Below are positions 2,897 through 49,576 of a stretch of DNA of 64,000 bases, piece after piece. The DNA lies in the NCBI RefSeq assembly GCF_900155545.1, contig NZ_LT732526.1, forward strand, positions 225,573-289,572, read 5' to 3'. The translations under genes and the position numbers were made by a program. Position 1 is the stretch's first letter. Every line of letters starts with the position of its first letter. This DNA is from Clostridium sp. Marseille-P2415 (GTDB lineage: Bacteria > Bacillota > Clostridia > Lachnospirales > Lachnospiraceae). Below the pieces are notes generated by a model. The model saw only the letters and a list, made by a program, of their open reading frames with translations. It was not told the origin of the DNA and searched no databases.

Positions 2897-2909
2897 GGAG
2901 GAAGAAAAA

Positions 2910-4103: not shown

Positions 4104-4145
4104 TAAGATTAACTGGTGGGCCAAGGCGCGCAGATAGGAGTTATT

Positions 4146-5549
4146 ATGGATTATAAAAAAATGGATACAGAAGATATAAATTATATAGGCAGTATCATTA
4201 AGGACAAAGACCGGATTCTTTGCGGAGAGAAAATAAATGAAGAATACAGCCACGATGAGTTAAGTGATACGGTCAGTTTTCCCGATGTGGTGGTGAAGGT
4301 AAAAACCACAGAAGAAGTTTCTGCGATCATGAAATATGCATATGAGAATACCATACCGGTGACTCCGAGAGGAGCCGGAACAGGTCTTGTCGGGGCTTCC
4401 GTAGCCATGGAACATGGCATTATGCTGGATACCGGCCTGATGAACCGCTTTCTGGAGCTTGATGAGGATAATCTGACCATAACCGTAGAGCCAGGAGTGC
4501 TTTTGATGGAACTGGCGGCATATGTAGAGGAAAGAGGCTTATTCTATCCTCCGGATCCGGGGGAAAAATCTGCGACCATAGGAGGTAATATCAGTACCAA
4601 TGCCGGAGGAATGAGGGCCGTAAAATACGGCGTTACCAGAGACTATGTAAGAGGTCTGGAAGTCGTACTGCCTGATGGCAAAGTCGTGGAATTTGGCGGA
4701 AAGGTAGTGAAAAACAGTACGGGATATGCCATGAAGGATTTAATGGTAGGTTCCGAAGGGACGCTGGGAATCATAACGAAAGCAACTCTTAAAATACTTC
4801 CCCTGCCGAAAAAAGCAATCAGCCTTTTGATTCCGTTTCCGACTCTGGAAAAGGCGATCGGTACCGTACCCCGGATCATTAAGTCCAGAGCCATACCCAC
4901 AGCCATAGAATTTATGCAGAGGGAAGTCATTATTGATGCGGAAAAATACCTGGGCAAAAAATTCCCCGATAACAGTGCGGACGCATACCTGCTGCTTAAG
5001 TTTGACGGAAATTCCACGGAAGAGATTGAACAGGATTATGAAAGTGTGGCCCGTATTTGTCTGGAACAGGGAGCGGTTGATATTTTAATTTCCGATACCA
5101 ATGAGAGAGAAGAATCCATCTGGAAGGCACGGGGGGCGTTCTTAGAGGCGATCAAAGGGTCCACCTCCTTTATGGATGAAGTGGATGTGGTGGTTCCGAG
5201 AAGCTCTGTGAATGAAATGGTGGAATATATCCACGGGCTGCATAAGGAAGTGGATATCCGGATCAAAAGCTTTGGTCATGCAGGGGATGGCAATCTTCAC
5301 GCTTACATTTTAAAGGATGATCTAAGCGAAGCGGAATGGGAAGAAAAACTGAAAGCTGCCATGGATAAGATTTATGGAAAAGCCAGAGAATTAAGCGGCC
5401 AGGTATCCGGGGAACACGGCATTGGATATGCAAAGAAATCCTATCTCATGGAGGCCATGGATCCTGCTGCGGTTGAAATTATGAGAGGAATCAAAAAGGC
5501 CTTTGATCCTAAAAATATATTAAATCCCCACAAGGTATGCCAGTTGTAA
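4146..5549 (+). CDS. lctD: FAD-dependent lactate dehydrogenase (GlcD/LctD family)
   Basis: The 467-residue protein has an N-terminal PCMH-type FAD domain with [13 protein letters not shown] and [19 protein letters not shown]. Its C-terminal FAD-oxidase domain carries the metal and substrate motifs [12 protein letters not shown] and [19 protein letters not shown] five bases upstream fixes the ATG at 4146 rather than an in-frame GTG at 4116. It is the third gene of the etf operon and should oxidise lactate to pyruvate, giving electrons to EtfAB. Glycolate or another 2-hydroxyacid remains possible because GlcD-family substrates are hard to tell apart. No lactate permease or racemase gene follows, unlike A. 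woodii. Confidence 0.87.
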
Positions 5550-5552
5550 ACA

Positions 5553-5603
5553 AAAAGGAGGAAATCCCCAAAGTCTTAAGGACTTGAGGGATTTCCTCCT
5601 TTT
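5553..5603. terminator. Bidirectional terminator between lctD and the permease
   Basis: A 16-bp perfect stem pairs 5553-5568 (AAAAGGAGGAAATCCC) with 5588-5603, with A-rich and T-rich flanks on both sides. The loop itself can form a small AAGTC/GACTT helix. It lies between convergent genes and should stop transcription from both sides. Confidence 0.85.
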
Positions 5604-5610
5604 CCTCCAT

Positions 5611-6960
5611 TCAGCGCTGTTCTGTCTTTCGTAAAAGCAGAGCACCGAGCGCCATGACAACAAAAAATACAATCAGATAAGCAGCCACAGCCATTCCGTG
5701 GGCAAACAAGGCGGCAATGATCATAAATATGCAGCCTGCAAGGGATATGCAGGGCATGAGGATCCGGTTAAAAAATTTAAGCTCTTTCCTTTTTACCATG
5801 AACATAATAAAAATAGGAATATACAGGGCATATATGGTGATAATGGGCAATTCCGAGGAATCAAAACTGAAGAATCCGAACCAGTTGGTGGTTAAGTTTG
5901 CCCCGTAAAAATAAAATAACCAGATGCCGCAGAGAAACAACCCCAGAATTGCGGAATTAACGGGCATATTGGTCGTCGGATCCACCTGGCTGAAAACCTG
6001 GGGTTTAGGACCAAGACCTCTTGCTGCAATGGAATAAATTCCCCGGGTACAGCCGAGCATCAGTCCGTTTAAGGTTCCCAGGCATGAAATAATGACAAAT
6101 ACAAACAACAGCGAGCCGCCCGCCGAGGTGAAAATCGTTTGGAATGCCAGCTTGGCACCGGTTTCGCCGCCAGCCATCATCACTTCATTTTTAATCGTTC
6201 CGGCTAAACCGATGTAATACAGGATATAAACGGACATGGTAATAAACGTTCCCGCGATCAAAGCCAAAGGAAGATTTTTCTTTGCATTTTTTAATTCTGC
6301 ATTAATGCAGGTTGCAATAATCCAGCCTTCATAAGCAAAGGATGCTGCGACAACAGCCGTAAATAATCCGTTGGAGGTGCTTTGAGACACGTAATGTGTG
6401 AAATTGTATGCGGTCATTCCGTTCCTTAGCCCGTGAAATGTTCCCACGGCTGCCATTAAAAAAAGCGGCACCAGTTTGATGACCGTAGTACTTACCTGGA
6501 ATTTTCCGGCCAGAACCGGAGATAAGGCATTCATTGTAAAGCTTGAAACCAGGTAAAGACAGGCAATGGTCATGCATTCCCCGCCTGTAATGGAAAAACC
6601 GAGGATCACGCAGGTATAACGGGCGGAAACCCATGCCAGTACCGATGTAATTGTCGGATAATAAATGAATGACATAAACCAGCCGACATAATAGGCATAC
6701 TTTTTCCCCATCGCGGCTTCTGCGTAATCCACTACACCATTAACATATTGATATTTGGTAGCCATAACAGAAAACGTATAAGCGCAGGAGATCATAATAA
6801 TACCGCCGATCACCCATGCCAGGATGCCCTGCTTTAAGTTGCCGCCGGTTGCGGTGAGGATCTTTTCTGCCTTAAAAAAAACACCGCTGCCGATGACGAT
6901 GCCTACAACCATGGCAATGGCTGTAAAAAGTCCATATTTTTTTTCTAGCTTCGGTTCCAT
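5611..6960 (-). CDS. APC-family amino acid permease
   Basis: The 449-residue protein has about 12 hydrophobic segments. It begins with the APC signature AMVVGIVIGSGVFFKAEKI in helix 1 and contains SFAYEGWIIATCINAELKN, which resembles the helix 6 region of LAT/SteT-type exchangers. It should move an amino acid across the membrane by symport or exchange. It lies 177 bases downstream of the amine oxidase on the same strand, so the two may be co-transcribed as an uptake-and-oxidation pair. The specific substrate cannot be read from the sequence. Confidence 0.85.
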   Translation of the reverse strand: MEPKLEKKYGLFTAIAMVVGIVIGSGVFFKAEKILTATGGNLKQGILAWVIGGIIMISCAYTFSVMATKYQYVNGVVDYAEAAMGKKYAYYVGWFMSFIYYPTITSVLAWVSARYTCVILGFSITGGECMTIACLYLVSSFTMNALSPVLAGKFQVSTTVIKLVPLFLMAAVGTFHGLRNGMTAYNFTHYVSQSTSNGLFTAVVAASFAYEGWIIATCINAELKNAKKNLPLALIAGTFITMSVYILYYIGLAGTIKNEVMMAGGETGAKLAFQTIFTSAGGSLLFVFVIISCLGTLNGLMLGCTRGIYSIAARGLGPKPQVFSQVDPTTNMPVNSAILGLFLCGIWLFYFYGANLTTNWFGFFSFDSSELPIITIYALYIPIFIMFMVKRKELKFFNRILMPCISLAGCIFMIIAALFAHGMAVAAYLIVFFVVMALGALLLRKTEQR

Positions 6961-36210: not shown

Positions 36211-37464
36211 CTACTTAAGGATCCCCAGTCTGAGTTTCCATACAAGGATCCGGATTACCGAAGCGTCGATCCGTTCTTCTTTTAGAGTCCCGTTATTCAG
36301 GGCATTTAAGACCGCAGGAATCTGTGTATCAAAGTCAGTAGCAACCAGTAAATCGTTTCCGGCAGTAATGGCAAGGACGGCAGAATCAACATCCGGGGTT
36401 TCATTCTTAATGGCATCCATGCTAAGGTCATCGGTCATAATGACTCCTTCAAAGTGAAAAGATTCCCTTAAAATTTCATGAACAGCGGGGGAAAGAGAGG
36501 CCGGATATTTCTCATCCATGGAAGTTACAATATTATGGGATACCAGTACACTGTCAGCACCGGCTTCCATACCGGCCCGGAAGGGAAGGAAATCACTCCG
36601 GACAAACTGGTCATAATCTCTGTTATCCGTAGCAGCTCCCGTATGGGTATCCGCATTGCTGCCATAGCCTGGGAAATGTTTCAGCGTGCTGCCGATCCGC
36701 TCCTTTTTCATTTCTTCAATGACTGTTCTGACGTAATCAGCCGTAGCCCCGGCCTCCCGGCCAAAGGACCGGCGGTAGATAAAATCATTGGGATCGGTAG
36801 AGACATCACAGACCGGAGCCAGGTTCACATTGATGCCAAGTCCAAGCAGGAGGGCAGCCTTTTCCCTGGTATCGGCCTGAATGGCTTCAAAGCCGCCCTG
36901 CTTATACAGATCCTGGGGGGACTTAAATGGTTCATTTCGGAAGGCTGTATATTTGCTGACGCGGCACACTGTTCCGCCTTCCTCATCCACTCCAATGAGC
37001 AGGGGGATGGGAGAGGAAATCTGGTAGCTTTTGATGAGCTCCCGGATGCTGGTTTTTGTCTCATCCTTAAAATCATCCCCGAACAGGATATAACCGCCCG
37101 GATGATAATTCTTAATATCCTCGATGGCGCTGTTCTTACGCAGGCGGACAAAAAACATCTGGCCAACTTTTTCCTCCGGAGTCATGCCGGAGAGCAGCTC
37201 TCTGGCTCTGGCCTTATAGGAATCACCGCCCGAGGCAGAATCCGTCTGTCCGGCGGTTTCGATAGCGGAGGTCTCTGCAGAAGAGGGTTCTGTTATGGTT
37301 TCTGCGGGATTTGGAGCAGCGGCTGCACCGGTTCCGTTGGCAGTCTGTCCGGAGTCCTCCGTGATCCGGTTATCTGATTGATTAGAATCCGGAAAGGACT
37401 TCGTGCAGCCTGTCAAAAGGAGCGGCACAAGGAAAAGTATAAATAGATAGTTGTATGATTTCAT
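36211..37464 (-). CDS. GH3 beta-N-acetylhexosaminidase-like lipoprotein (NagZ family)
   Basis: The 417-residue protein has a lipoprotein signal with lipobox LLTGC (about residues 14-20), a Ser/Thr/Ala/Glu-rich linker and a GH3 domain. KHFPGYGSNADTH and the nucleophile region VIMTDDLSMDAI are present. NagZ-type enzymes remove GlcNAc from peptidoglycan pieces; lipid-anchored forms act outside Gram-positive cells. The ATG at 37464 fits the signal peptide. It lies 84 bases after the SGNH gene on the same strand and may be the last gene of that cell-surface operon. Confidence 0.88.
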   Translation of the reverse strand: MKSYNYLFILFLVPLLLTGCTKSFPDSNQSDNRITEDSGQTANGTGAAAAPNPAETITEPSSAETSAIETAGQTDSASGGDSYKARARELLSGMTPEEKVGQMFFVRLRKNSAIEDIKNYHPGGYILFGDDFKDETKTSIRELIKSYQISSPIPLLIGVDEEGGTVCRVSKYTAFRNEPFKSPQDLYKQGGFEAIQADTREKAALLLGLGINVNLAPVCDVSTDPNDFIYRRSFGREAGATADYVRTVIEEMKKERIGSTLKHFPGYGSNADTHTGAATDNRDYDQFVRSDFLPFRAGMEAGADSVLVSHNIVTSMDEKYPASLSPAVHEILRESFHFEGVIMTDDLSMDAIKNETPDVDSAVLAITAGNDLLVATDFDTQIPAVLNALNNGTLKEERIDASVIRILVWKLRLGILK

Positions 37465-37548
37465 GAAATTCCTCTCTGACCGATCTGATGCTGGAAGCAA
37501 TCTGTTTTTGTTTCATTATATAGTTTCAGGAAGCAATGGTCAAGGGAA

Positions 37549-38514
37549 TCAATTCCGGCCTGTCAGAGTTAAATAATTTTTCAGTTCCCGGTTCCAGGAA
37601 GCATATTGTTCTTCTTTGCGGCGGTCTTTCAGATCCGTGTGTTCGGTCAGGCAGGTTCCTATATAGTCCGATACTTTTCTGGCTCCAAAGTAGTTCAAAT
37701 GGTCCCCCTCATCCCGGGAATCTTTTGCCCAGTCGATATTCAGGGCATCAATATTTAAATTCAGGTCAATATAAGTCAGCTGATGTTCTTTCGCAAAGGA
37801 AGCGGCAGCATTATGCTTGGAATAGGTCCAGCACTTTGGTGAGGGAGCACTGTAAAGGATCAATTGAATGTGTTTCTCCCCGCAGAGTTCCGCGATCTTA
37901 TTGAGATAGAATAAAGGCTGTTCTCCGATTTGGCAGATATCATCTGTTTTATTTACATAAGGCCCGCTTTTGTATGGCTTAACAATGGCACTGTATTCAT
38001 ATCCTTTATAAACAGTTACCGGTCCCTGCTTTGCTTTCCGGCCCAGATTTTTTAACATATAAAAGTGAAAATATTTCCAGCTGTTATGGTATTTATAGAT
38101 AGGAAAGATTTTTTTTGCTGCTTCATCGGCAGTAGTCTCAAGGGCATTGATGTATTTGAAATCCCGGTAAAATGCATTGGTTTCCAATAATACTACCTTT
38201 GGCGATTGATTTTGCAGCAGCCGTTCAAGCAGATAATAAGTGTCCTGCAGCCGTTGCCCCGGAACGCCGCAGTTATAGCCCGCATAGCCGTAAGCTTGAT
38301 AGATTTCCAGGGGAGATATGCTGACACTGCATTCACTGTCCCCGATTGCTATGTAATCAATGGTGTCTTTTGGCTCATTTAAGATGCCGTTTGCCTTTTT
38401 ATAAAAGCCGTTTTCCATGCTGTTATATGGAAGAAGCAGATAGGATCCTGCGTACAATAAAAGGAAAAGGCCTGCTAAAAATAATGTTGTTTTTATAAGA
38501 TTTCCGGTTCGCAT
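37549..38514 (-). CDS. SGNH-like membrane-anchored acyltransferase/esterase (AlgJ/DltD-like role)
   Basis: The 321-residue protein has one N-terminal membrane helix (about 8-28) and then an extracytoplasmic SGNH-type domain. The GDS motif is in YIAIGDSECSVSISPLEIY and the Asp/His block in DEGDHLNYFGA. SGNH proteins paired with MBOAT acyltransferases (AlgI-AlgJ/X, PatA-PatB, DltB-DltD) complete transfer of an acyl group to an outside polymer. It begins 11 bases after the MBOAT gene. An AGAGGTGA site precedes the ATG. Confidence 0.8.
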   Translation of the reverse strand: MRTGNLIKTTLFLAGLFLLLYAGSYLLLPYNSMENGFYKKANGILNEPKDTIDYIAIGDSECSVSISPLEIYQAYGYAGYNCGVPGQRLQDTYYLLERLLQNQSPKVVLLETNAFYRDFKYINALETTADEAAKKIFPIYKYHNSWKYFHFYMLKNLGRKAKQGPVTVYKGYEYSAIVKPYKSGPYVNKTDDICQIGEQPLFYLNKIAELCGEKHIQLILYSAPSPKCWTYSKHNAAASFAKEHQLTYIDLNLNIDALNIDWAKDSRDEGDHLNYFGARKVSDYIGTCLTEHTDLKDRRKEEQYASWNRELKNYLTLTGRN

Positions 38515-38525
38515 CCATTCACCTC

Positions 38526-40109
38526 TTAAAATCCGGCATAAATCAATTTTGCCGGTAAATATCCATCCCCATAAGCGCCCAGAATAATGACTGTCAGAAT
38601 GGCAGCATAAAGAAAGCCCCAGCGGGCAAACAGATTCCAGCCGGAAATTTTCCCGCGTATGGAGATCCCTTTTTCGTGTATCACTCCGACCGCATATACC
38701 ACAAGGAAGCCAAACAGCACGGCAGTAAAATCCTGCAGGGACAGACCCAGCTTTAATAAGGATCCGTCTGTGGCCGCAGACCAGCTGAATCCGGTAAAAA
38801 TGGACCGGAACATGAGCAGACCGCTTTTTAAGCTGTCCGCTCTGAAAAATAATTCTCCGGTAAATATGATCGGAAGCATTTTCAAGGTCTGAAAGCCGCG
38901 GTACAGGGTGTTTCGACGGTCAATCTTCAGCAAGTCCGTTATCTTCTGAACCAGCGGTTCGGACAGATTGCCAAGCATGATCAAGACAAAGTAATACATG
39001 CCGAAGAAAATATAATTCCACCCGGTTCCGTGCCATAATCCGTTGCAGATCCATACCCCAAACAAAGCGATGGAAGAGGCAAGAACCTGTCCCATATGTT
39101 TCCCGAATTTCGCTCTTGAACTCTTCCCCAGTTTCTTAGCAAACCGGGTCAGGGAAATGGGATAAAAGACATAATCCTTCAGCCAGGTGCCAAGCGTGAT
39201 ATGCCAGCGTCTCCAGAATTCCGAGGCGGTTTTGGAGAAAAAGGGCTGGCGGAAGTTTTCGGGAATGATTATCCCGAACATCTCACCGGTACCGATCGTC
39301 ATATCGATGCAGCCTGAAAAATCAGCATACAGCTGGAAGGTATACAAAACAGCAGCCACAAGGATGGGAATCCCGCTATATTGGCCGGGATTGCCAAAAA
39401 CCGTTTCTGCAAGCATGTTCAGACGGTCAGCGATAACGAGCTTTTTAAATAATCCCCATAGCATTCTCTGTATTCCGAAGGTAACATTTTTATATTCCAG
39501 GGGCCTTCCCTGATGCAGAACCGCCGCCGTCTGGGAATACCGGCAGATCGGCCCTTCCATGATCGCCGGGAAAAATGACAGGTATAAGGCCAGCCTGCCT
39601 AAATGGTCATCTGCCTCTATTTTCTCATAATAGACATCGATCAGGTACGAGACGGCCTGCAGGGTATAAAAGGATATGCCGATCGGTAAGGCAAATTTCA
39701 TTTCCGGCAATAGCTTTGGGAAAGATGCCGCTTTTAATAGCAGATTCATATTTTCGCAAAAGAAACCGGAGTATTTTAGAAGCAGTAAAATACCAAGCTG
39801 CAATCCGATCCCAAACCATAATATCCTGCGCTGCTTCTTTGAACAGGCTGATTTCAGTGCCTTTTTGTCATCCCAGTCCGGTTCCTTTAACCCATAGTCT
39901 TTTTTACAGGAAGAAAGCCAAAGTCCTGTGTGATGAATGGAAAGGGTAGAAAAAAGTAAGTATACCAGGAGCTTTCCGCTTATGGAGAGGAAAAAAACAT
40001 AACTGGCAAGCAGCAGTACTTTATAACGGTGACGCATGGGCGCAAGCTGATATGCCAGAAGTACGGCCGGCAAAAAGATAAAAAGGTACAATATTGAATC
40101 GTAAGCCAT
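38526..40109 (-). CDS. MBOAT acyltransferase, AlgI-type
   Basis: The 527-residue protein has about 11 membrane helices and the MBOAT core: LPIGISFYTLQAVSYLIDVYY, SEFWRRWHITLGTWLKDYVFYP and the catalytic His in CNGLWHGTGWNYIFFG. AlgI/DltB-type proteins pass an acyl group from a cytoplasmic carrier across the membrane to a surface polymer. By motif and length it is nearer AlgI than DltB. The carrier protein gene ends four bases upstream and its coding end carries this gene's ribosome binding site (AGAGGAC). The donor is presumably the acyl or aminoacyl group loaded on that carrier. Confidence 0.88.
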   Translation of the reverse strand: MAYDSILYLFIFLPAVLLAYQLAPMRHRYKVLLLASYVFFLSISGKLLVYLLFSTLSIHHTGLWLSSCKKDYGLKEPDWDDKKALKSACSKKQRRILWFGIGLQLGILLLLKYSGFFCENMNLLLKAASFPKLLPEMKFALPIGISFYTLQAVSYLIDVYYEKIEADDHLGRLALYLSFFPAIMEGPICRYSQTAAVLHQGRPLEYKNVTFGIQRMLWGLFKKLVIADRLNMLAETVFGNPGQYSGIPILVAAVLYTFQLYADFSGCIDMTIGTGEMFGIIIPENFRQPFFSKTASEFWRRWHITLGTWLKDYVFYPISLTRFAKKLGKSSRAKFGKHMGQVLASSIALFGVWICNGLWHGTGWNYIFFGMYYFVLIMLGNLSEPLVQKITDLLKIDRRNTLYRGFQTLKMLPIIFTGELFFRADSLKSGLLMFRSIFTGFSWSAATDGSLLKLGLSLQDFTAVLFGFLVVYAVGVIHEKGISIRGKISGWNLFARWGFLYAAILTVIILGAYGDGYLPAKLIYAGF

Positions 40110-40113
40110 CTTT

Positions 40114-40341
40114 TTAGTCCTCTTGCAATCGATTGATCATACTCCATATGGCTTTTGCAGAATTGAAGTTAACAGGTACCATGTCCATGGGAGTGATTTC
40201 GATGCAAAAAGCATCTTCTAACTCCGGTATGAGAGATAGTATGGAAAATGAATCCAGAAGACCTCCGTCAATCAGCCTGGTCTCTGTTTCATAATCAATG
40301 CTCGGGTTAATTTCCTTTAAGATATTTAATAATTGCTCCAT
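40114..40341 (-). CDS. Acyl/aminoacyl carrier protein (DltC-like)
   Basis: This is a 75-residue acidic helical protein with the phosphopantetheine serine in GGLLDSFSILSLIPELEDAF. Its size and motif are like DltC. AAGGAG nine bases before the ATG at 40341 is preferred to an in-frame start at 40362. It lies between the decarboxylase and MBOAT genes, so it is likely the shuttle loaded by the adenylating ligase. Confidence 0.87.
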   Translation of the reverse strand: MEQLLNILKEINPSIDYETETRLIDGGLLDSFSILSLIPELEDAFCIEITPMDMVPVNFNSAKAIWSMINRLQED

Positions 40342-40365
40342 ATTTATAATCTCCTTTATCATTTC

Positions 40366-41583
40366 TTATGCCTGAAAGTAATTTAAGACATCCGTCTGCA
40401 GATTGGGTCTGGCTATACGGAATTTATCATGCTCTGAATACAATAGTACTTTTGGCAATTCGCGGCTTAAAAATAAGGACATGCCTTCTGTGACCGAATA
40501 AGCGCCTGCCTTTTGAAAGATCAGTTTATCCCCCGGTTTAAGGCCGGTAAAAGGGTATTGCTTCACCAGGACATCATTTACCGTGCATAAAGAGCCGCAG
40601 ACCGTCCATTCCTTTGTTTCTCCGTCACGGGAATTGAAATGAAGGATGGGAGGCTTTTTCATAGCCAGCATCTGCCCATAATAGTTTAAATGGTGAATGC
40701 CGCCGTCAACGATGCAATAGGGCTGACCGTCATTTATCTTCATATCTGCCACGCTCGTGACATATGAGCCGCAGGAAGCGGCGATGAACCTTCCCATTTC
40801 CAATGTGATCTTCCCTCCGAATGTAAGCTGTTTTAAGAGCGCTGCAAGGGTATTCAGCATAAAATCCTCCTCATTTTTATAGCCGGATGAATCAGGCGGA
40901 TCTTCCGCCTTATCCTCTTTAAAATAACACACAGGAAGGCCGGGGCCATACTCGATTTTCTTAACAGTAAAATCATATTGATTTTTTAAATCAGAACAAA
41001 GCTGATCCAGCATATTCAGTTCTTTTTCCAGTTTTGCTGCGGATTTTTTCTGTGTGCCTGAAAAGAACTGAATGCCTTCCAGGCTTATGAAATCATAAGG
41101 ACTTTTCTCCGCAATCTGACGTATCGATGTCTCATCCATGCCAAATTGATTTCCCGATGTCAGCCGCAGGAGTACCCGGACAGGCAGGCGGTGTTTTTGG
41201 GCATAACCTTTAATATGCTGCCATTGGGAGAGAGATTCAATGGTATAGATGATCTGATTTCCGTACCGGTCAAGGGCATATTCCATATCTTTCGGATTTT
41301 TATGTACACCGGACATGACGATCTTATTCATATTTATATGGGCTCTCTCACAGATATGGAATTCTCCGGGAGAGCAGACTTCAAAAGAATCAGCCAATTC
41401 CTCCAGTTCTTTGATTACAAAGGGATTGGCTTTCATGGCATAGCATAATTCCACGTCCCTGCCAAGAGCTGTTCTGATCTTACGGATCTGCCGGGCCAGG
41501 ATATCCGTATCAAAAATATAGAAGGGAGTCTGGTACTGACTGATTGCATCAGCAAATTTTTTTTCGTTCCAGATTGTTTTCAT
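40366..41583 (-). CDS. Fold-type III PLP-dependent amino acid decarboxylase
   Basis: The 405-residue protein has the alanine-racemase-type barrel with PLP lysine in LCYAMKANPFVI, the phosphate region EMGRFIAASCG and the C-terminal catalytic Cys/Asp block CGSLCTVNDVL. Relatives include diaminopimelate, ornithine and arginine decarboxylases and BtrK, which decarboxylates glutamate bound to a carrier protein. The start overlaps the ligase stop by four bases (ATGA). The specificity helix cannot be assigned by eye. Being between a ligase and a carrier protein, it may make the amino acid or amine to be loaded, or act on the loaded carrier. Confidence 0.85.
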   Translation of the reverse strand: MKTIWNEKKFADAISQYQTPFYIFDTDILARQIRKIRTALGRDVELCYAMKANPFVIKELEELADSFEVCSPGEFHICERAHINMNKIVMSGVHKNPKDMEYALDRYGNQIIYTIESLSQWQHIKGYAQKHRLPVRVLLRLTSGNQFGMDETSIRQIAEKSPYDFISLEGIQFFSGTQKKSAAKLEKELNMLDQLCSDLKNQYDFTVKKIEYGPGLPVCYFKEDKAEDPPDSSGYKNEEDFMLNTLAALLKQLTFGGKITLEMGRFIAASCGSYVTSVADMKINDGQPYCIVDGGIHHLNYYGQMLAMKKPPILHFNSRDGETKEWTVCGSLCTVNDVLVKQYPFTGLKPGDKLIFQKAGAYSVTEGMSLFLSRELPKVLLYSEHDKFRIARPNLQTDVLNYFQA

Positions 41584-43085
41584 CCGCGCATCTCCAATAG
41601 TTTTTTTCTGTCGATCTTTCCGTTTGCAGTCAGAGGTAATTCAGGCAGGGGAAAGAATGCGGACGGAATCATATAGGAAGGCAATGACTCCTTCATCCTG
41701 CCTGCAATTTGTTTCCCCTCCATACTTCCCACATAAAACGCAGTGATCCTGTTTTTCGCTGTATCAAAAACGCAGCATGCTCTTTGGATGTCCGGATAGC
41801 TGTTCAGGGTGAGTTCAATTTCTTCCAGTTCAATGCGGTGTCCCATATGCTTGATCTGAAAGTCCTTCCGGCCTGCAAAACACAGCTCTCCCTTCTCATT
41901 GTAAAAGGCAAGATCACCGGTCCGGTAAACCGTCTCAAGGTAATGCGTGTTCAGCGGATTTTGCACAAAAGCCTGTCTGGTTTGTTCCGGGTTGTTGTAA
42001 TACCCCAAAGCCAAGGCTGTGCCGGATACACAAATTTCGCCAATCGTTTCTTTCTCTGTAACCAGTTTGTCCTCCTGGTTCAACAGGAAGACTTTTTCAT
42101 TGGGAAACGCTTTTCCGATGGGCAGCATTTCATCCGGATCCAATTCCCGGCCGATGCGGTAATAGGTGCAGTTGCAGGTGATTTCCGTCGGGCCGTATAA
42201 ATTCACGTACTCTGCATGGGGGAGGTACGACTGCCAGAGCTTTAAATGCTTGATTGGCATTGCCTCACCGCTGAATAATATTTTGTTTACTGCGGAAGGC
42301 ACTTTATAAGTGAGCCCCTTTAACTGCGTTACCATGCATAGTGCGGAAACCGCCCATATCAAGGTTGTTACCCTGTATTCACAGATGTAGTCGAGCAGCT
42401 GCGTGGGGATGGAAAAAAGCCTTTTGGGTATGATGACCATGGCTGCCCCTGTTTTAAGGGCTGCATAAATATCCTTTACGGATACATCAAAATCAAAGGG
42501 GGCCTGATTTCCGATGATGTCGTCCTCAGTAATATGAAACATGGAAGGAAAGTACTCCATAAAATCAATGACAGAACGGTGGCTGACTAAAACCCCTTTT
42601 GGTACGCCGGTGGAACCCGAAGTAAAATTGCAGTATAAAGGATCGATATCCTGAGACAAGTTACGGATAAGCCGTAATGTTTCTTCTGATATACCGCTTT
42701 TCACAATGTCATAATAGGAAAGCACTCTCCCGGTAAATCCAATGTCCGGCAGCGCGGTTTTTAAATCGCCAGGCGTAATGATGCAGTCTGTATCTGCAAT
42801 GTTTAATATCTGCCGGATCCGGTCTGCCGGCTGATCCGGGTTTATTAAGATATAAAAGCATCCGGCGTAAACAATTCCCATGAATGCAGTCAATGCCTCT
42901 ACGCTTTTATCCATAAAGACAGCCACCGGACGGCCGGGAGATACTGAGGAAGCAAGAAAACTGCCGATTCGCTTGGCATTTGACAGCAGGTCTTTATAAG
43001 AACAGCTTTTTTCCGGGTCTGTCACGGCTGTTTTATCCGGAAATTTTCGGGCGGAATGTTCTAAATATTCCAAAACATTTCTCAT
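41580..43085 (-). CDS. Amino acid adenylating ligase (DltA-like)
   Basis: The 501-residue protein is a stand-alone adenylation domain. The P-loop is CNFTSGSTGVPKGVLVSH, A4 is FDFDVSVKDIY, A5 NLYGPTEITCN, A7 YRTGDLA and A10 LPLTANGKIDRK with the catalytic Lys. It activates a carboxylate with ATP and loads the carrier protein. The overall pattern is like DltA, but residues in its D-alanine pocket differ (Lys in FDVSVKDIY where DltA has Met, Ser in ILFSGEAMP where DltA has Cys), so the substrate may not be D-Ala. It overlaps both neighbours by four bases. Confidence 0.87.
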   Translation of the reverse strand: MRNVLEYLEHSARKFPDKTAVTDPEKSCSYKDLLSNAKRIGSFLASSVSPGRPVAVFMDKSVEALTAFMGIVYAGCFYILINPDQPADRIRQILNIADTDCIITPGDLKTALPDIGFTGRVLSYYDIVKSGISEETLRLIRNLSQDIDPLYCNFTSGSTGVPKGVLVSHRSVIDFMEYFPSMFHITEDDIIGNQAPFDFDVSVKDIYAALKTGAAMVIIPKRLFSIPTQLLDYICEYRVTTLIWAVSALCMVTQLKGLTYKVPSAVNKILFSGEAMPIKHLKLWQSYLPHAEYVNLYGPTEITCNCTYYRIGRELDPDEMLPIGKAFPNEKVFLLNQEDKLVTEKETIGEICVSGTALALGYYNNPEQTRQAFVQNPLNTHYLETVYRTGDLAFYNEKGELCFAGRKDFQIKHMGHRIELEEIELTLNSYPDIQRACCVFDTAKNRITAFYVGSMEGKQIAGRMKESLPSYMIPSAFFPLPELPLTANGKIDRKKLLEMRG

Positions 43086-44419
43086 GGCTTTTCCTCCTCT
43101 CTGATTGGTTTTGTCGGAAACGTTATGCGGGCTTCAAAATGGGTCTGGTTTTTTGAGATTTCAAAGGTACCGTTCATCTGTTCCACTATTTTCCGGCAGG
43201 TCTTTAATCCGATATTGGTGCGATCCAGGAATACGCTGTCTTTCCGGATCGCATTGGAAATGCGGATGGTCAAATCATTGCCTTCCATATATCCGGTAAC
43301 AATGACCGGCCCGTTTAAGCTGGCATATTTACTCACATTGGAAAATAAATTGTCGAACAGCCTTTTTAAATATTGTATATCAGCCGTTATGATACAGGAC
43401 TGCGCTGCAAATTCTGTTTTTACATCAAAACCCAGATTGCTCAAATCAAAAACATGTTCGCTGATCAGCTGCTGGAGTAGGATTTTTGCATCAAATGTTT
43501 CCATCTGCATCAATATCTTTTCCTTGCCGAATACAAGAAAATACTGGAATAATTCGTCGGATAGATCCTTTAATTGAATGGACTTTTCTTTGCAGCTTTT
43601 CATGTATTTATCAAACTGTTCCTCCGAATAACAGCTCTTTGAATCCAGAATTTCCAGATAGCCGATGAGCGAGGTCAGCGGGGTACGGATATCATGGGAT
43701 ATGGAAGTGATCAGTTCGCTGTTTGCTTCCCATGCTTCCTTTTCGCTTTTATATCTTGCGATAATGGAATTTCTCATGTTATCCGCGTTCTTTGCAAGCA
43801 AAGAAATCTCATCGTTTCCTTTATGGAAAATCGGCTGCTCCAAATCCCCTTTTTCGATTAAGGATACTTCTTTTGATAAGAGGACGATCCGGGCTATGAT
43901 CCGGCGGTTATAGAGGATCAGGATCGCAAACAGGAACAGGAAAAGGATTCCCCATGATATATACAATACCAGGTTATACCATTTTATATCCGAAGAATCG
44001 ATGATGGATACGGAATAGGTCCCATCGCTGAATGCGACATCGCGGATGGATTGTTCATTGGTTTCCATGATGGTTCCTGCGGTTTCATAAGAAGCGTACT
44101 CATCATTCCAGTAACCGGATTCATAAACGATTTCGTTTCCGTCATATATGGTCAGATAAATATACTTATGGTATTTTACCCATTTTGAGATGGACCTTAC
44201 ATTTTTAACGGATATGTGATTTTTATGGATATATTTTTCAAACGAATTCTGATAAGTGCTTAATCTTTTTAATACGGCATCTTCATTCAGGTGATTTCTT
44301 GTGACCAGATAATCCCCCAGATTTAGTGCGATAAGGTACATGCCAAAGCTGATCACCGCTCCGAATATCAATACAAATATTTGTTTATACCGTAAAGATG
44401 ATATCCATTTATGCTTCAT
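43082..44419 (-). CDS. Sensor histidine kinase of the surface-modification operon
   Basis: The 445-residue protein has helices at about 12-35 and 148-170 flanking an outside domain of about 115 residues. A HAMP domain (about 170-222), H-box SISHDIRTPLTSLIGY (His about 240), N-box LFDNLFSNVSKYAS and G-box region IGLKTCRKIVEQMNG follow. The outside domain is large enough to bind a ligand or sense wall damage. It overlaps the regulator gene by 11 bases and the ligase gene by four, so kinase and biosynthetic genes are on one mRNA. Confidence 0.9.
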   Translation of the reverse strand: MKHKWISSLRYKQIFVLIFGAVISFGMYLIALNLGDYLVTRNHLNEDAVLKRLSTYQNSFEKYIHKNHISVKNVRSISKWVKYHKYIYLTIYDGNEIVYESGYWNDEYASYETAGTIMETNEQSIRDVAFSDGTYSVSIIDSSDIKWYNLVLYISWGILFLFLFAILILYNRRIIARIVLLSKEVSLIEKGDLEQPIFHKGNDEISLLAKNADNMRNSIIARYKSEKEAWEANSELITSISHDIRTPLTSLIGYLEILDSKSCYSEEQFDKYMKSCKEKSIQLKDLSDELFQYFLVFGKEKILMQMETFDAKILLQQLISEHVFDLSNLGFDVKTEFAAQSCIITADIQYLKRLFDNLFSNVSKYASLNGPVIVTGYMEGNDLTIRISNAIRKDSVFLDRTNIGLKTCRKIVEQMNGTFEISKNQTHFEARITFPTKPIREEEKP

Positions 44420-45122
44420 CGATCTGATAGCCCTTTCCCCAGACGGTGCGAATGATTGCAGGGTTATTGAAATCCAGTTCCAGTTTTTTTCGAAGCTTTA
44501 AAATGTGGACCATAATCGTATTGGTAGAAGAGGGAAGAAACTTATCGTTCCATACGCCTTCGTAAATTGCCTGTGCATCTTTTGCCTTTCCCCGATTCTT
44601 AACCAGATACATCAAAATCTGGAATTCTGTGTCGGTAAGATCGATTTTTTGATTTTCGCGGGTAACCGAATGGCTTGCAGCATCGATCAAAATATCCTGC
44701 AGACGTATTTCCGAACTGTTTGAGGCGGATTCTGTTTTCCCTTTGTAGACAACATATCTTCTTAAAAGAGACCGGACCTTCATGAGAAGTTCGGCCTGTG
44801 AAAATGGTTTTACCAGGTAGTCATCGCCGCCATTTTCATATGCCGCTGTTTTATCATTTTCTTTTGACCTGGCAGTCAAAAAAAGGACGGGAGCAGAAGA
44901 CCTTTTACGGATTTCCGCGCAGGCACCGATACCGGATAATTCAGGCATCATGATATCTAAAATGATCAGGTCGATGTCAGGATTTTCTGCGACCGCCAGA
45001 ACCGCCTCTTTTCCGTTTGCCGCCTCCAATACGAAGTAGCCTTTCCGCTCCAGCTGAATGCGAAGGACTTCCCGGATATCGGCGTCATCATCCACCACCA
45101 GTATCTGCTGTACTGTACTCAT
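44409..45122 (-). CDS. OmpR-family response regulator of the surface-modification operon
   Basis: The 237-residue protein has a receiver domain (VDDDADIREVL, phospho-Asp in IILDIMMPELSG, FLTARS, DDYLVKPFSQAEL). A winged-helix domain ending IRTVWGKGYQIDEA follows, most like VanR/YycF-type regulators. AGGAGG lies before the ATG. It is the first gene of the operon, so the system probably regulates itself through the direct repeats upstream of its promoter. Confidence 0.92.
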   Translation of the reverse strand: MSTVQQILVVDDDADIREVLRIQLERKGYFVLEAANGKEAVLAVAENPDIDLIILDIMMPELSGIGACAEIRKRSSAPVLFLTARSKENDKTAAYENGGDDYLVKPFSQAELLMKVRSLLRRYVVYKGKTESASNSSEIRLQDILIDAASHSVTRENQKIDLTDTEFQILMYLVKNRGKAKDAQAIYEGVWNDKFLPSSTNTIMVHILKLRKKLELDFNNPAIIRTVWGKGYQIDEA

Positions 45123-45163: not shown

Positions 45164-45191
45164 ATTATAACATTTATCGATGGAATAACAA
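45164..45191 (-). promoter_or_regulatory. Promoter of the surface-modification operon
   Basis: On the minus strand TTGTTA (45191-45186), 16 bases, TATAAT (45169-45164). It lies about 40 bases before the response regulator start. Confidence 0.65.
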
Positions 45192-45449: not shown

Positions 45450-46529
45450 ATGAGAAAGAAAATTTTATTATTAGGGATAATTGCAGTTTTCGTGATTGTG
45501 GTGATTATTATTCGGATTAACGGGGGAAAGAAGGCCGTGGAGGGGGATGCGATCCCCGTAGTGGAAACCGCTAATCCGGAAGTCGGAACGATAGAGCTGT
45601 ATACCAGTCTGGTTGGTACCGTGGAGCCGGAAACGGTTGCCAGGATTTATCCGGAGACAGCGGGAACGGTGACCCAGGTTCTTGTGAAAGCCGGAGATAT
45701 GGTGAATGAGGGACAGCTTCTATGTGTCATTGATACAAAAAAAGTGGAGAGTTCAAAAAGCTCCATGGATAATGCAGAGGTTACATACAAAGAGGCCCGG
45801 GATACCCTGGGGCGGATGGCGGTTCTGTTTCAGAGCGGAGACATCGCAGAGCAGGAATATCAGGGCTATGTAAATTCGGCGAAAAAGGCCGAGATCGCTT
45901 ATAAACAGGCGAAGGAGGAATATGACAACCAGCTTTCTTACAGCAATATCGTGTCTCCGATCGGCGGTAAAATAGAAAGCTGCGGTATCGAAGTTTTTGA
46001 CAAGGTATCTGTGAGCGATCAGATCTGTGTTGTTTCCGGAGAAGGGAATAAGGTGATAACCACAGGCCTGACGGAGACATTGAAGCATCAGGTAAAGTCC
46101 GGAGATACGGTGAAGGCGGAGAAGGGCGGAGAGGTTCTGGAAGGGATCATTTCTGAAATGAGTGAAATGGTGGATGAACAGACCGGGCTCTATAAGATCA
46201 AGATACAGTTAAAAGGGGCAACAGACTTATCTACCGGGACGAATGTCAAGCTGTCGGTCTGTTCCGAGCGGGCGGAGCAGGTGGTTACGGTTCCCGTGGA
46301 TTCCGTCTATTACGAGAACAGCAAGCCCTATGTGTTCACTTATGACCAGGGAATTGTACATAAAATTTTTATTGAAGCAGGAATTTATGATTTAGACCGG
46401 ATGGAGGTAAAGGAAGGAATCACGGAGGATATGTCAGTCATTACCACCTGGAGTCCGGAGCTTTATGAAGGAGCAAAGGTATTGGAGATGAGCGCGGAAG
46501 GGGAAACAAAAGGAGAATCTGAAGTATGA
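45450..46529 (+). CDS. RND efflux periplasmic adaptor-like (membrane fusion) protein
   Basis: The 359-residue protein has one N-terminal membrane helix (about 4-22). A split lipoyl domain (TVEPETVARIYPETAGTVTQVLVKAGDMVNEGQLL and SNIVSPIGGKIESCGI), a short coiled-coil hairpin (about 90-150) and a beta-barrel follow. In Gram-negatives such proteins link pump and outer membrane; here it would extend into the wall side. AAGGAG precedes the ATG. It overlaps the pump gene by four bases. Confidence 0.9.
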   Translation: MRKKILLLGIIAVFVIVVIIIRINGGKKAVEGDAIPVVETANPEVGTIELYTSLVGTVEPETVARIYPETAGTVTQVLVKAGDMVNEGQLLCVIDTKKVESSKSSMDNAEVTYKEARDTLGRMAVLFQSGDIAEQEYQGYVNSAKKAEIAYKQAKEEYDNQLSYSNIVSPIGGKIESCGIEVFDKVSVSDQICVVSGEGNKVITTGLTETLKHQVKSGDTVKAEKGGEVLEGIISEMSEMVDEQTGLYKIKIQLKGATDLSTGTNVKLSVCSERAEQVVTVPVDSVYYENSKPYVFTYDQGIVHKIFIEAGIYDLDRMEVKEGITEDMSVITTWSPELYEGAKVLEMSAEGETKGESEV

Positions 46530-49500
46530 AAAATTTAACCAGAATCGTTTTAAAACGGCCCATTACAATTATCATGTGCCTTTTGTGTCTGGTTGTTTTT
46601 GGTGTTTCTTCTGTGAAAAACTCCAGGCAGGAGCTGACTCCGGAGATGAACATGCCAATGCTGATGGTCGTGACGGCGTATCCCGGGGCACAGCCGAAAG
46701 ATGTGGATGAACTGATCAGTAAAAAAATCGAAAACGCGGTCGGTTCCTTGAGCGGAATTAAAAAGGTGGCCTCCAAATCCTCGGAAAACCGTTCCACAGT
46801 TACACTGCAATATGAGTACGGGACCGATCTGGATAAGGCGTATGATGATTTAAAGAAAAAAATCGATGTTGTGGCATCGGATCTGCCGGAGGATTCCAAT
46901 GCACCTGTTGTGATGGAGCTGGATACCGGTTCCACTGCCGATTTTACATTAACGGTCAGCAAGAACGGGATGGAGAATCAGTATGGCTATGTAAAACATG
47001 AGATTGTTCCGGAACTTGAGAAGCTGTCCGATGTGGCAGAGGTATCGATTGCAGGCGGCAGCGATGACTATATCAAGGTAGAATTGATTCCGGAGCGGCT
47101 GGAGCAGTATAAGCTTTCCATGTCATCCATTGCCAATGATATTGCCGGGGCGGATGTAAAGATGCCGGGAGGGACCATTGGTGTAGGCAGAAAAATGGCT
47201 GCCATTTCTTCACGGCTGGGTTTTGATACGGAGGAATCCTTAAAGGAAATTCCGCTGACTGTTCCAGGCAACAATATCGTTTATCTGGGGGATGTAGCGG
47301 CTATTTATACAACAAGAGAAAAGGAAGGAAGTATCGCCCATTATAATGGAGAGGATACGGTCTCTCTTTCCATCAGCAAACAGCAGAGTTCCACTGCGGC
47401 AGAGCTTTCGAAGGAAGTAAGGAAAGCGGTTCAGTCAATGGAAGCGGCGGATCCGGATTTAAGTGTGCATATTGTCAATGACAGCTCGGAAGATATCCTG
47501 GCTTCCTTATTATCCATCGCCGAAACGATTCTTCTCGGCATGGTGATTTCCATGGTGGTCATCTGGTTGTTTTTTGGCGATTTAAAGGCTTCCCTGATCG
47601 TTGGGAGCTCCATACCGGTTTCGATCCTGACGGCACTTATTTTAATGAAGTTCATGGATTTCTCTTTGAATATGCTGACACTGGCAGCCCTGTCCATGGG
47701 AGTCGGGATGATGGTGGATAATTCCATTGTTGTGATGGAAAGCTGTTTCCGGGTGACGGATCAGGGAAAAGGGGAGTTCATCGATTATTTTCACGATGCA
47801 TTGGAAGGAACGGGAATCGTGGGGGCCTCGGTTTTGGGATCTACATTGACTACCTGTGTGGTATTCCTTCCGTTGGCTTTCTTAAACGGTATGGCAGGAC
47901 AGATGTTTATGCCCTTGGGATTTACCATCGTGTTCTGTATGGGAGCTTCCCTGATATCTGCAATAACGGTCGTACCTCTGTGTTACCTTTTGTATAAGCC
48001 GGTGGAAAATACCCGGGCACCTTTATCCACACCGATTCAAAAGCTTCAGGACATATACAGAGGTGTTATGAGGCACATCCTTCCCAAAAAGAAAACAGTT
48101 ATGGGAATTTCGGTCCTTCTTCTTGTGGTATCCTTCCTTATGGCAGGCCAGCTGAATGTCAGCCTGATTACCGCAGATGACCAGGGGCAGATCGCCGTCA
48201 AGGTGGAAATGGTTCCGGGTCTTAAGGCAAAGGAAGCGGATGAGGTGCTGAGAAAAGTAGAAGCCGCCTTTTCCGATTATGACGAAATGGATTCCTATAT
48301 CACAAGCTATGGGGGAAGCGGAGTCAGTGCAGGCAGTTCGGCTTCAATCATTGTGTATCTGGACGAGGACAGAAAAATACCTACAAAGAAGGCTGTGGAT
48401 ATTTTTAAAGAGAAATTAAGCAATGTAACGGACTGCAAGATCACTGTGGAAGAAAATTCCTATGCCAACATGGGCAGCTCCACCGACAGCTATGAGCTGA
48501 TTTTAAGAAGTGCCGATTATGACCGGCTGAAAGAGGCTTCGGAACAGATCACATCGGAATTGATGAACAGAACGGAGCTGACCCGCGTCCATTCTTCCCT
48601 TGAAAACTCGGCTCCTGTTGTTGAAGTGACTGTGGATCCGGTGAAGGCGAAGGCGGAAGGCATCAGCCCTTCTTCCATCGGACACAGCGTGTACCAGGCC
48701 ATCAATGGCGTGACTGCGACGACTTTAGAGGTGGATGGCGATGATGTGGATGTGAAAGTCCGGTATGCGGAAGGTGAATACCAGGCTGTGGATCAGATCC
48801 GGAATATGACCCTGAACCTTTCAAACGGAGGCTTTGTGGCCTTAAATGATGTGGCAGAATTGAGCTTTCAGGACAGTCCGGCCACCATCACGAGAGAAGA
48901 TAAGCAGTATATTGTAACTATAACGGGAGATTACACATCATCAGCGGATAAAAATACGAAAAAGACCATTAATAATGAAATTGTAGCACCGAAATTAAAT
49001 GCGCAGGTCAGCTTAGGCACCAGTTCTATGGATGAAACTACGACGGAAGAGCTTTCTTCACTTCTTTCGGCGATCATTCTGGCAGTTTTTCTTGTATTTG
49101 TAGTGATGGCCGCCCAGTTTGAGTCACCAAGGTTCTCTTTCATGGTCATGACTACGATTCCTTTCAGCCTGATCGGGGCCTTTGGTCTGATGTTCTTTGC
49201 AGGCTGTGATCTGAGTATGGTTGTAATGCTGGGATTTTTGATGCTCATTGGTACGGTTGTAAACAGCGGGATTCTTTATGTAGATACGGTAAACCAGTAT
49301 AAAGAAGAAATGAGCCCGGAGGAAGCCATGATCGAGGCAGGAGCCACCAGGCTCCGTCCGATCCTTATGACAACCCTGACTACGGTGCTGTCCATGATCC
49401 CGATGGCGCTTGCACTGGGCCATTCAGGAGAAATGATGCAGGGACTTGCCATTGTCAATATCGGCGGCCTGACCGCGTCAACGGTTTTAAGCCTTCTGAT

Positions 49501-49576
49501 GCTTCCGGTATATTACGGCCTTATGAGTAAAAAGGGAGAGAAAGTGAAAAAGAAGCGAAGGAAAAATAAAGAATAA
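46526..49576 (+). CDS. RND-superfamily efflux transporter (AcrB/SwrC type)
   Basis: The 1016-residue protein shows the duplicated RND layout: helix 1 near 10-30, outside loops of about 300 residues each, and helix blocks near 335-540 and 850-1005. GVGMMVDNSIVVMESCF in helix 4 holds the proton-relay acidic residues, and GTVVNSGILYVD is in the second half. Full-length RND pumps are uncommon in Gram-positives; SwrC of Bacillus exports surfactin and other amphipathic compounds. The start overlaps the adaptor stop as ATGA. Confidence 0.92.
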   Translation: MKNLTRIVLKRPITIIMCLLCLVVFGVSSVKNSRQELTPEMNMPMLMVVTAYPGAQPKDVDELISKKIENAVGSLSGIKKVASKSSENRSTVTLQYEYGTDLDKAYDDLKKKIDVVASDLPEDSNAPVVMELDTGSTADFTLTVSKNGMENQYGYVKHEIVPELEKLSDVAEVSIAGGSDDYIKVELIPERLEQYKLSMSSIANDIAGADVKMPGGTIGVGRKMAAISSRLGFDTEESLKEIPLTVPGNNIVYLGDVAAIYTTREKEGSIAHYNGEDTVSLSISKQQSSTAAELSKEVRKAVQSMEAADPDLSVHIVNDSSEDILASLLSIAETILLGMVISMVVIWLFFGDLKASLIVGSSIPVSILTALILMKFMDFSLNMLTLAALSMGVGMMVDNSIVVMESCFRVTDQGKGEFIDYFHDALEGTGIVGASVLGSTLTTCVVFLPLAFLNGMAGQMFMPLGFTIVFCMGASLISAITVVPLCYLLYKPVENTRAPLSTPIQKLQDIYRGVMRHILPKKKTVMGISVLLLVVSFLMAGQLNVSLITADDQGQIAVKVEMVPGLKAKEADEVLRKVEAAFSDYDEMDSYITSYGGSGVSAGSSASIIVYLDEDRKIPTKKAVDIFKEKLSNVTDCKITVEENSYANMGSSTDSYELILRSADYDRLKEASEQITSELMNRTELTRVHSSLENSAPVVEVTVDPVKAKAEGISPSSIGHSVYQAINGVTATTLEVDGDDVDVKVRYAEGEYQAVDQIRNMTLNLSNGGFVALNDVAELSFQDSPATITREDKQYIVTITGDYTSSADKNTKKTINNEIVAPKLNAQVSLGTSSMDETTTEELSSLLSAIILAVFLVFVVMAAQFESPRFSFMVMTTIPFSLIGAFGLMFFAGCDLSMVVMLGFLMLIGTVVNSGILYVDTVNQYKEEMSPEEAMIEAGATRLRPILMTTLTTVLSMIPMALALGHSGEMMQGLAIVNIGGLTASTVLSLLMLPVYYGLMSKKGEKVKKKRRKNKE

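Follow-up and report, generated by a model that had tools for sequence, protein, structure and literature searches.

The Operon and Its Gene Products

A 64,000-nucleotide stretch of the Clostridium sp. Marseille-P2415 genome (contig NZ_LT732526.1, positions 225,573 to 289,572 of the forward strand; hereafter the window) harbors an operon that is apparently an undescribed variant of the D-alanine (Dlt) system, in which an adenylating ligase, a carrier protein, an MBOAT acyltransferase and an SGNH-fold protein are accompanied by a pyridoxal phosphate (PLP) decarboxylase and a two-component system. A sequence-only reading of this DNA had described seven overlapping or nearly touching genes, and their coordinates and order were borne out by the positions of the open reading frames (ORFs), all of which are on the minus strand and occupy positions 37549 to 45122; read 5' to 3' on that strand, they encode a response regulator, a histidine kinase, the ligase, the decarboxylase, the carrier, the MBOAT and the SGNH protein. 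Regulator and kinase genes overlap by 11 bp, kinase and ligase as well as ligase and decarboxylase genes by 4 bp each, and the gaps that follow (decarboxylase to carrier, carrier to MBOAT, MBOAT to SGNH) measure 3, 4 and 11 bp.

The stand-alone adenylating ligase (41580..43085) has an AMP-binding domain, a DltA-like position and a pocket reading DVKILSLCNK. The fold III PLP decarboxylase (40366..41583) is composed of PF02784 (Orn_Arg_deC_N) and PF00278 (Orn_DAP_Arg_deC), and its nearest relative is BtrK. The acyl carrier protein (40114..40362) is without a Pfam match and reaches only 33.1 bits on the DltC model, whose cut-off is 68; its phosphopantetheine Ser38 is kept in at least 97% of 103 rows. 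It is followed by a long MBOAT acyltransferase (38526..40109; PF03062, 73.9 bits) with the C-terminal acyl-shuttle motif LIYAGF, and by a membrane-anchored protein (37549..38514) with Ser60, Asp268 and His272, whose SGNH fold was recognised from a predicted structure. The two regulatory genes encode an OmpR-type response regulator (44409..45122; PF00072 (Response_reg) and PF00486 (Trans_reg_C)) and a sensor histidine kinase (43082..44419; HAMP, HisKA and HATPase_c), for which the best NCBIfam model is VanS-like (105.1 bits, cut-off 400).

Conservation of the Gene Set

The decarboxylase served to scan named genomes, and 80 of 112 loci were kept; 51 of these have at least 4.5 kb on both sides, the other 29 being left out for too little flank or for want of a decarboxylase ORF. 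The set of ligase, decarboxylase, carrier, MBOAT and SGNH protein recurs in other genomes: in 48 of the 51 loci the other four genes lie on the same strand within 5 kb of the decarboxylase. Of the three exceptions, L068 has no carrier that was found, L073 no MBOAT within 5 kb and L093 neither MBOAT nor SGNH protein. Two main orders were observed, ligase-decarboxylase-carrier-MBOAT-SGNH and MBOAT-SGNH-ligase-decarboxylase-carrier. The closest loci belong mostly to Anaerocolumna and Lacrimispora, with others labelled Oscillospiraceae, Erysipelotrichaceae and Christensenella. One locus, L070, on a contig labelled Streptococcus suis SSHP-D, holds the five core genes together with a regulator and a kinase, and this label may be wrong; all other loci are from Clostridia or Erysipelotrichaceae. 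Within the same family, 60 of 299 genomes have a decarboxylase match (E<=1e-30), as do 4 of 398 genomes sampled across the phylum (E<=1e-50), the own genome being counted in both. A relative of the window MBOAT is present in 164 of the 299 family genomes, and the own genome has one MBOAT match.

Only 16 of the 51 loci have both a regulator and a kinase on the decarboxylase's strand and no more than 5 kb away, 12 of them among the loci nearest to the window (L034-L046, L064); the two-component system is thus part of this lineage's version of the operon rather than of its core, and it probably controls the operon in this lineage. The earlier suggestion that it responds to cationic peptides found no support beyond adjacency, the sensor genes being missing from most homologous loci.

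The Adenylating Ligase and Its Pocket

The ligase exceeds the cut-off of TIGR01733 (333.5 bits against 317.4). It is not a DltA equivalog, since it reaches 302.6 bits on TIGR01734, where 559.85 are required, and 319.1 bits on a second DltA model. The ten pocket positions, named by the GrsA numbering, correspond to residues 200, 201, 204, 243, 270, 272, 296, 304, 305 and 490 of the protein. For the conservation counts, family-genome and named-genome loci were pooled into 105 ligases and 110 decarboxylases (105 distinct sequences in each case) after proteins shorter than 85% of the window protein had been dropped; the rows are not independent, because in some cases both routes led to the same genome (L006 and L052, L013 and L055). 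The pocket DVK..S.CNK is present in 104 of the 105 ligases, the window's included: Asp235, Val236, Lys239, Cys330 and Asn331 each occur in 104, Ser301 and Lys517 in all 105. In 11 DltA-type loci of the same family the pocket reads DLMVLCTVAK (seven), DLMVLCTVCK (three) or DLFVICTGAK (one), and the window ligase agrees with DltA at 3 of 10 positions only. Loading with D-alanine alone is disfavoured by this comparison of pockets.

Canonical DltA over the cut-off was found in 8 of the 299 family genomes and not in the own genome; two family genomes (G082 and G152) hold both such a DltA and the decarboxylase, so the cassette is no simple replacement of Dlt. These figures bear on the idea that the locus is a plain D-alanylation operon with an unrelated lysA-like gene caught inside, which appears very improbable. 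Its best arguments are the matches of the ligase to both DltA models, the weak DltC match of the carrier and the rarity of canonical DltA, which something might have replaced, but it has to account for the different pocket, for the co-occurrence in G082 and G152, for a decarboxylase that adjoins the other four genes in 48 of 51 loci and for an MBOAT shuttle tail that is missing from 11 of 11 DltB proteins.

The substrate must have two carboxyls, because a PLP decarboxylase needs one beside the amine and the thioester takes another. The amine-binding Asp235 is kept in the window-type pocket and Lys239 is added; by analogy, Lys239 could hold the second carboxylate. The pocket does not tell aspartate from glutamate. 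The next ligase clade (support 84/94) includes ten ligases with Lys239 and the pocket DAKCAGLGMK or DAKCCGLGMK, eight of which have a gene of one racemase cluster in their cassette, and the sister ligases L152 and L170 are without Lys239. The one racemase-cluster member that was scanned matches TIGR00035 ('amino acid racemase', asp_race; 204.4 bits, cut-off 93.1) and narrowly passes the cysteate racemase model NF052483 (196.1 bits, cut-off 190). Since this neighbor-clade racemase is of the aspartate type, aspartate is favoured as the substrate, with glutamate and cysteate as possible alternatives. Among the surface groups proposed from the sequence, beta-alanine and gamma-aminobutyric acid (GABA) fit such a substrate. 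A diamine does not and was ruled out on chemical grounds, because no carboxyl remains for the thioester.

Kinship of the Decarboxylase

The best match of the decarboxylase in the PDB is BtrK, whether searched with the single sequence (113.3 bits, next 82.4) or with the family profile (192.8 bits, next different protein 165.5); the PDB names BtrK L-glutamyl-[BtrI acyl-carrier protein] decarboxylase. VinO itself is not among the PDB matches. K51, E262, R265, C333 and D337 are present in all 110 rows, and the family motif LCT..D has its Thr in 108 of them. The same motif is found in BtrK, in L207 (an AMP-binding/carrier neighborhood), in L208 (an exosortase-type trio) and in L211, where the decarboxylase adjoins a methylaspartate mutase and a polyketide synthase. 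Eight plasmid regions were used for such comparisons, of which L206, L212 and L213 are unannotated.

The possibility that this enzyme is the cell's only lysA, which the sequence-only reading had listed among the findings that would refute it, was rejected: on the lysA model TIGR01048 it reaches 158.6-162.9 bits, below the cut-off of 297.9, and two other homologues in the own genome outscore it there, with 265.9 and 264.3 bits against 158.6, although all three stay under the cut-off. It is also hard to credit that the enzyme makes lysine from diaminopimelate, with lysyl as the transferred group. The below-cut-off TIGR01048 match (162.9 bits) speaks for that idea, and one end of meso-diaminopimelate could form the thioester while the other loses its carboxyl; against it, the two own-genome homologues are the better lysA candidates and carry LCE..D in place of LCT..D, and the decarboxylase family forms one clade (100/100) apart from them.

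Cassettes Without the Decarboxylase and the Order of Events

Forty other stand-alone ligases of the family, away from the decarboxylase, were chosen by hand among the matches listed; one of them, L145, is a contig-end copy of the decarboxylase type. An MBOAT gene is near in 27 of the 40 regions, and six of these 27 cassettes carry the pocket DVK..S.CNK with no decarboxylase adjacent (L147, L148, L150, L155, L158 and L163). Five of the six genomes gave no decarboxylase match (E<=1e-30), and the remaining one, G082, has a decarboxylase in another cassette. In the ligase tree the six branch off outside the decarboxylase type, with 93/94 for the node that unites them with it. Five of them form a clade (100/99), L150 is adjacent to the decarboxylase type (89/82), and L145 falls inside that type, which has a support of 95/98. 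A formyltransferase gene (PF00551) was observed beside ligase and carrier in L147, L150, L155 and L163; none was seen in the cassettes of L148 and L158.

Were the decarboxylase the source of the ligase's substrate, ligases without it would be expected to load a different compound; the fact that they share the pocket suggests that it is the undecarboxylated acid which is loaded, and that the decarboxylase works on the carrier. Comparison with BtrK, as the nearest solved relative, points the same way, and decarboxylation probably takes place after loading, on the carrier, which supports one of the options of the sequence-only reading. The reverse order, in which a free amino acid is decarboxylated first and the ligase then loads free GABA or beta-alanine, appears unlikely. 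It draws on the names of most relatives solved and recovered by profile, which refer to free substrates (diaminopimelate and ornithine decarboxylases), and on LCT..D being common to a siderophore-cluster relative (L209). It is opposed by the six cassettes with the same pocket, by a pocket Lys that is needless for a mono-acid and by the name of BtrK as a glutamyl-carrier decarboxylase. Likewise, in vicenistatin biosynthesis VinN loads 3-methylaspartate and not the decarboxylated acid, and VinO decarboxylates on the carrier; FlvN recognises aspartate (PMC11284099).

The Transfer Half: MBOAT and SGNH Protein

In the MBOAT, H303, H360 and Y524 are invariant in 26 aligned sequences and present in at least 97% of 70. 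After removal of incomplete or short proteins (below 400 aa in the named decarboxylase loci, below 350 aa elsewhere), the C-terminal Tyr of the motif xxYxx[F/Y] was found in 69 of 69 complete MBOATs of the 80 named loci (65 ending in F, four in Y) and in 26 of 26 of the 40 other regions, against none of 11 DltBs. On the MBOAT family profile four long plasmid MBOATs scored 263-396 bits, although, having been found with the window's own MBOAT, they are biased to score well, versus 129-158 bits for the 11 DltBs. Both tail and profile score agree with the earlier statement that this MBOAT is not DltB. As described in PMC12148441, DltB hands D-alanine on to a tyrosine of DltX, a microprotein, whose counterpart in other MBOATs of these pathways is a similar motif at the C-terminus, borne by two additional helices, and an MBOAT with a shuttle tyrosine and an SGNH protein form a described polymer-acylation pair; the same source states that MBOAT/SGNH pathways other than Dlt have no similar carrier protein. 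The presence of ligase and carrier genes in the window operon argues for a carrier donor and not an acyl-CoA.

Neither Pfam nor NCBIfam has a match for the SGNH protein, and a sequence search of the PDB gave none that convinces (best E 0.17). The AlphaFold model of the protein (mean pLDDT 84.2; N-terminal helix at residues 3-27) was matched by Foldseek to SGNH/GDSL hydrolases (best E 8.7e-6) and to the peptidoglycan O-acetyltransferase PatB (2.2e-4), with modest TM-scores of about 0.4 by query length; no DltD is among the Foldseek matches listed. G58, S60, D268 and H272 are invariant in 26 aligned sequences. The protein is not recognisably DltD, since comparison with 11 proteins taken by position as DltD gave an hhalign probability of 20 in local and 65 in global mode. 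With His360, the constant C-terminal Tyr and an adjoining SGNH fold, the pair has the features of the PatAB type.

This pairing bears on the rather improbable alternative that the trio of ligase, decarboxylase and carrier makes a small secreted or lipid-linked aminoacyl product and not a polymer ester. Similar trios occur in vicenistatin biosynthesis and in the polyketide cluster of a Streptomyces plasmid (L211), and no recurring polymer gene was found among the clustered operon neighbors, ten of which were annotated. Such a product would leave a described polymer-acylation pair (PMC12148441) beside the trio to be explained, and the operon listing shows no other gene that recurs in most loci.

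Relation to Known Systems

In common with DltXABCD, the window operon has a stand-alone adenylating ligase, a small carrier as thioester donor, an MBOAT and a membrane-anchored SGNH-fold protein, which supports the Dlt-like logic that had been read from the sequence. It differs by its ligase pocket, by the added decarboxylase, by an SGNH protein that is not recognisably DltD and by a long MBOAT whose own C-terminal shuttle Tyr takes the part of DltX. With the butirosin pair BtrI-BtrK (L-glutamyl-carrier to GABA-carrier) it shares the closest solved decarboxylase relative, whereas butirosin is an antibiotic and its pathway uses a different kind of ligase. The VinN-VinL-VinO and FlvN/FlvO systems, which convert 3-methylaspartate or aspartate to a beta-aminoacyl carrier, likewise combine an AMP-binding ligase, a carrier and a PLP decarboxylase, but feed a polyketide synthase and have the pocket DYYPTTQRIK in the VinN-like ligase. 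The exosortase-A-associated trio (TIGR03098, TIGR03099) shows the same gene order ligase-decarboxylase-carrier (L208), and TIGR03099 is the best NCBIfam model for the window decarboxylase (183 bits, cut-off 478.45), TIGR03098 being matched with 200.0 bits (cut-off 592.35). Its pocket differs (DASTATMRSK in two exosortase-type ligases), and no MBOAT is annotated in the 10-kb L208 stretch. Since the pockets DYYPTTQRIK and DASTATMRSK both differ from the window's, the logic of the trio occurs with different ligases. PatA-PatB and AlgI-type O-acetylation share the MBOAT with a C-terminal shuttle Tyr and the SGNH protein, in a comparison set without an AlgI sequence; PatA, however, uses acetyl-CoA, whereas the window operon holds a ligase and a carrier. 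By these likenesses, the cassette thus appears to combine a Dlt-like front, made up of ligase and carrier, with a PatA-like back in which an MBOAT with its own fused shuttle works with the SGNH protein, a decarboxylase being placed between the two.

No description of this gene set was found among the literature matches listed (titles and abstract openings; subscription papers and preprints lay outside the literature searched), and none of these matches assigns a homologous cluster to a known product, in agreement with the sequence-only reading.

Proposed Mechanism

From sequence and fold comparison, we propose with a probability of roughly 0.6 that the operon serves to produce an amino-acyl group and to export it to a polymer on the cell surface. 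The ligase would adenylate a dicarboxylic amino acid and load it onto the carrier, most likely L-aspartate through its beta-carboxyl or, alternatively, L-glutamate through its gamma-carboxyl. The PLP decarboxylase would then take off the alpha-carboxyl on the carrier, leaving a beta-alanyl- (or GABA-) carrier. The MBOAT would move the group from the carrier to the Tyr of its own C-terminal xxYxxF tail, from which the Ser of the SGNH protein would take it up outside and form an ester with a hydroxyl group on a polymer of the envelope, for which lipoteichoic acid is a plausible candidate. The product would be a primary-amine ester like that of D-alanine, but its amine would be farther from the ester by one or two carbons. 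Lipoteichoic acid as acceptor is a guess and only plausible: the own genome has no PF04464 match and nine proteins with a sulfatase domain (PF00884), three of them of about LtaS length. Downstream of the cassette in L052, a nucleotidyltransferase, a sulfatase-domain protein and a choline-binding-repeat protein were observed.

Several observations weigh against this proposal. The role of Lys239 as a binder of the second carboxylate is presumed from glutamate-specific nonribosomal peptide synthetase codes. One ligase of a decarboxylase cassette, L108, has the unrelated pocket IARGCSQASK (its gene order is ligase-carrier-decarboxylase). The VinN-like ligase of L211, beside a methylaspartate mutase, has DYYPTTQRIK, which sets the window ligase apart from the VinN kind. 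Because the pocket itself was the mark by which the six decarboxylase-free cassettes were picked, they demonstrate that this pocket exists without a decarboxylase and not that it stays constant after loss of one. The motif LCT..D is no proof of carrier dependence, because the siderophore-cluster relative L209 has it, and another decarboxylase relative, L213, carries LLT..D. In the tree the decarboxylase family lies nearer to VinO-like and Streptomyces rows than to lysA, but a deep fork with a support of only 45/31 would unite them, and the branches are long. For the MBOAT, the sole NCBIfam match is the DltB model TIGR04091 (150.6 bits, below the cut-off of 375) and the sole PDB matches of its profile are DltBs. 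The want of a recurring polymer gene among the annotated neighbors belongs here as well.

Related Cassettes and Possible Significance

Related cassettes with a racemase or a formyltransferase suggest a modular family. The odds appear about even that carrier-fed MBOAT-SGNH cassettes in this bacterial family, each with its own pocket and tailoring enzyme, constitute a code of surface ester groups. In such a code the decarboxylase type of the window would give beta-alanyl or GABA esters; the formyltransferase type, with the same pocket, N-formyl aminoacyl esters; the type with an aspartate-type racemase and the pocket DAKCAGLGMK, D-aspartyl or D-glutamyl esters; and a further type, with the pocket SM[LT]YLALDIK, something other than an alpha-amino acid. 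The last pocket is found in eight ligases of one clade (99/88), seven of them with an MBOAT near (L144, L146, L149, L161, L169, L173 and L174), and because the amine-binding Asp235 is replaced by Ser this type probably loads no alpha-amino acid. The racemase-cluster gene accompanies ligase, MBOAT and SGNH protein with the pocket DAKC[AC]GLGMK in L157, L159, L164-L168 and L171, a possible case of D-aspartylation of a surface polymer. A carrier-fed MBOAT cassette was also observed in Bacilli, on the Metabacillus plasmid pB218 (L214, positions 2126-6454), where a carrier, an AMP-binding ligase (pocket SYSGTAMARK) and an MBOAT ending in FIYGGF occur with a 304-aa hypothetical protein.

D-alanine is the textbook group on Gram-positive teichoic acids. 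If the proposed mechanism holds, many Clostridia would decorate their surface with other amino acids by means of a Dlt-like front and a PatA/AlgI-like back, with a bearing on host immunity, peptide tolerance and phage binding; the family figures behind this are those for canonical DltA, the MBOAT relative and the decarboxylase (8, 164 and 60 of 299 genomes). If the modular reading also holds, the charge of surface esters would shift from cationic to zwitterionic or anionic. The mechanism makes a sharp prediction, ester-linked beta-alanine or GABA, that is testable with a few purified proteins.

Flanking Features

A promoter-like site lies 5' of the response regulator gene on the minus strand (45164..45191), with the form TTGTTA-16-TATAAT, a TG before the second hexamer and 10 of 12 consensus letters. 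The promoter scan returned 22 sites against 19.5 in shuffled sequences, so this site is weak evidence. Directly upstream of the operon and divergent from it, on the plus strand (45450-49576), are the genes of an RND-type efflux adaptor and of a 1016-aa pump-like protein. On the other side, a GH3-family gene on the minus strand (36211-37500) starts 48 bp past the SGNH gene and matches a beta-N-acetylhexosaminidase model below its cut-off; just upstream of it, at 37543-37515, the same near-chance scan gave a promoter-like site with 11 of 12 consensus letters.

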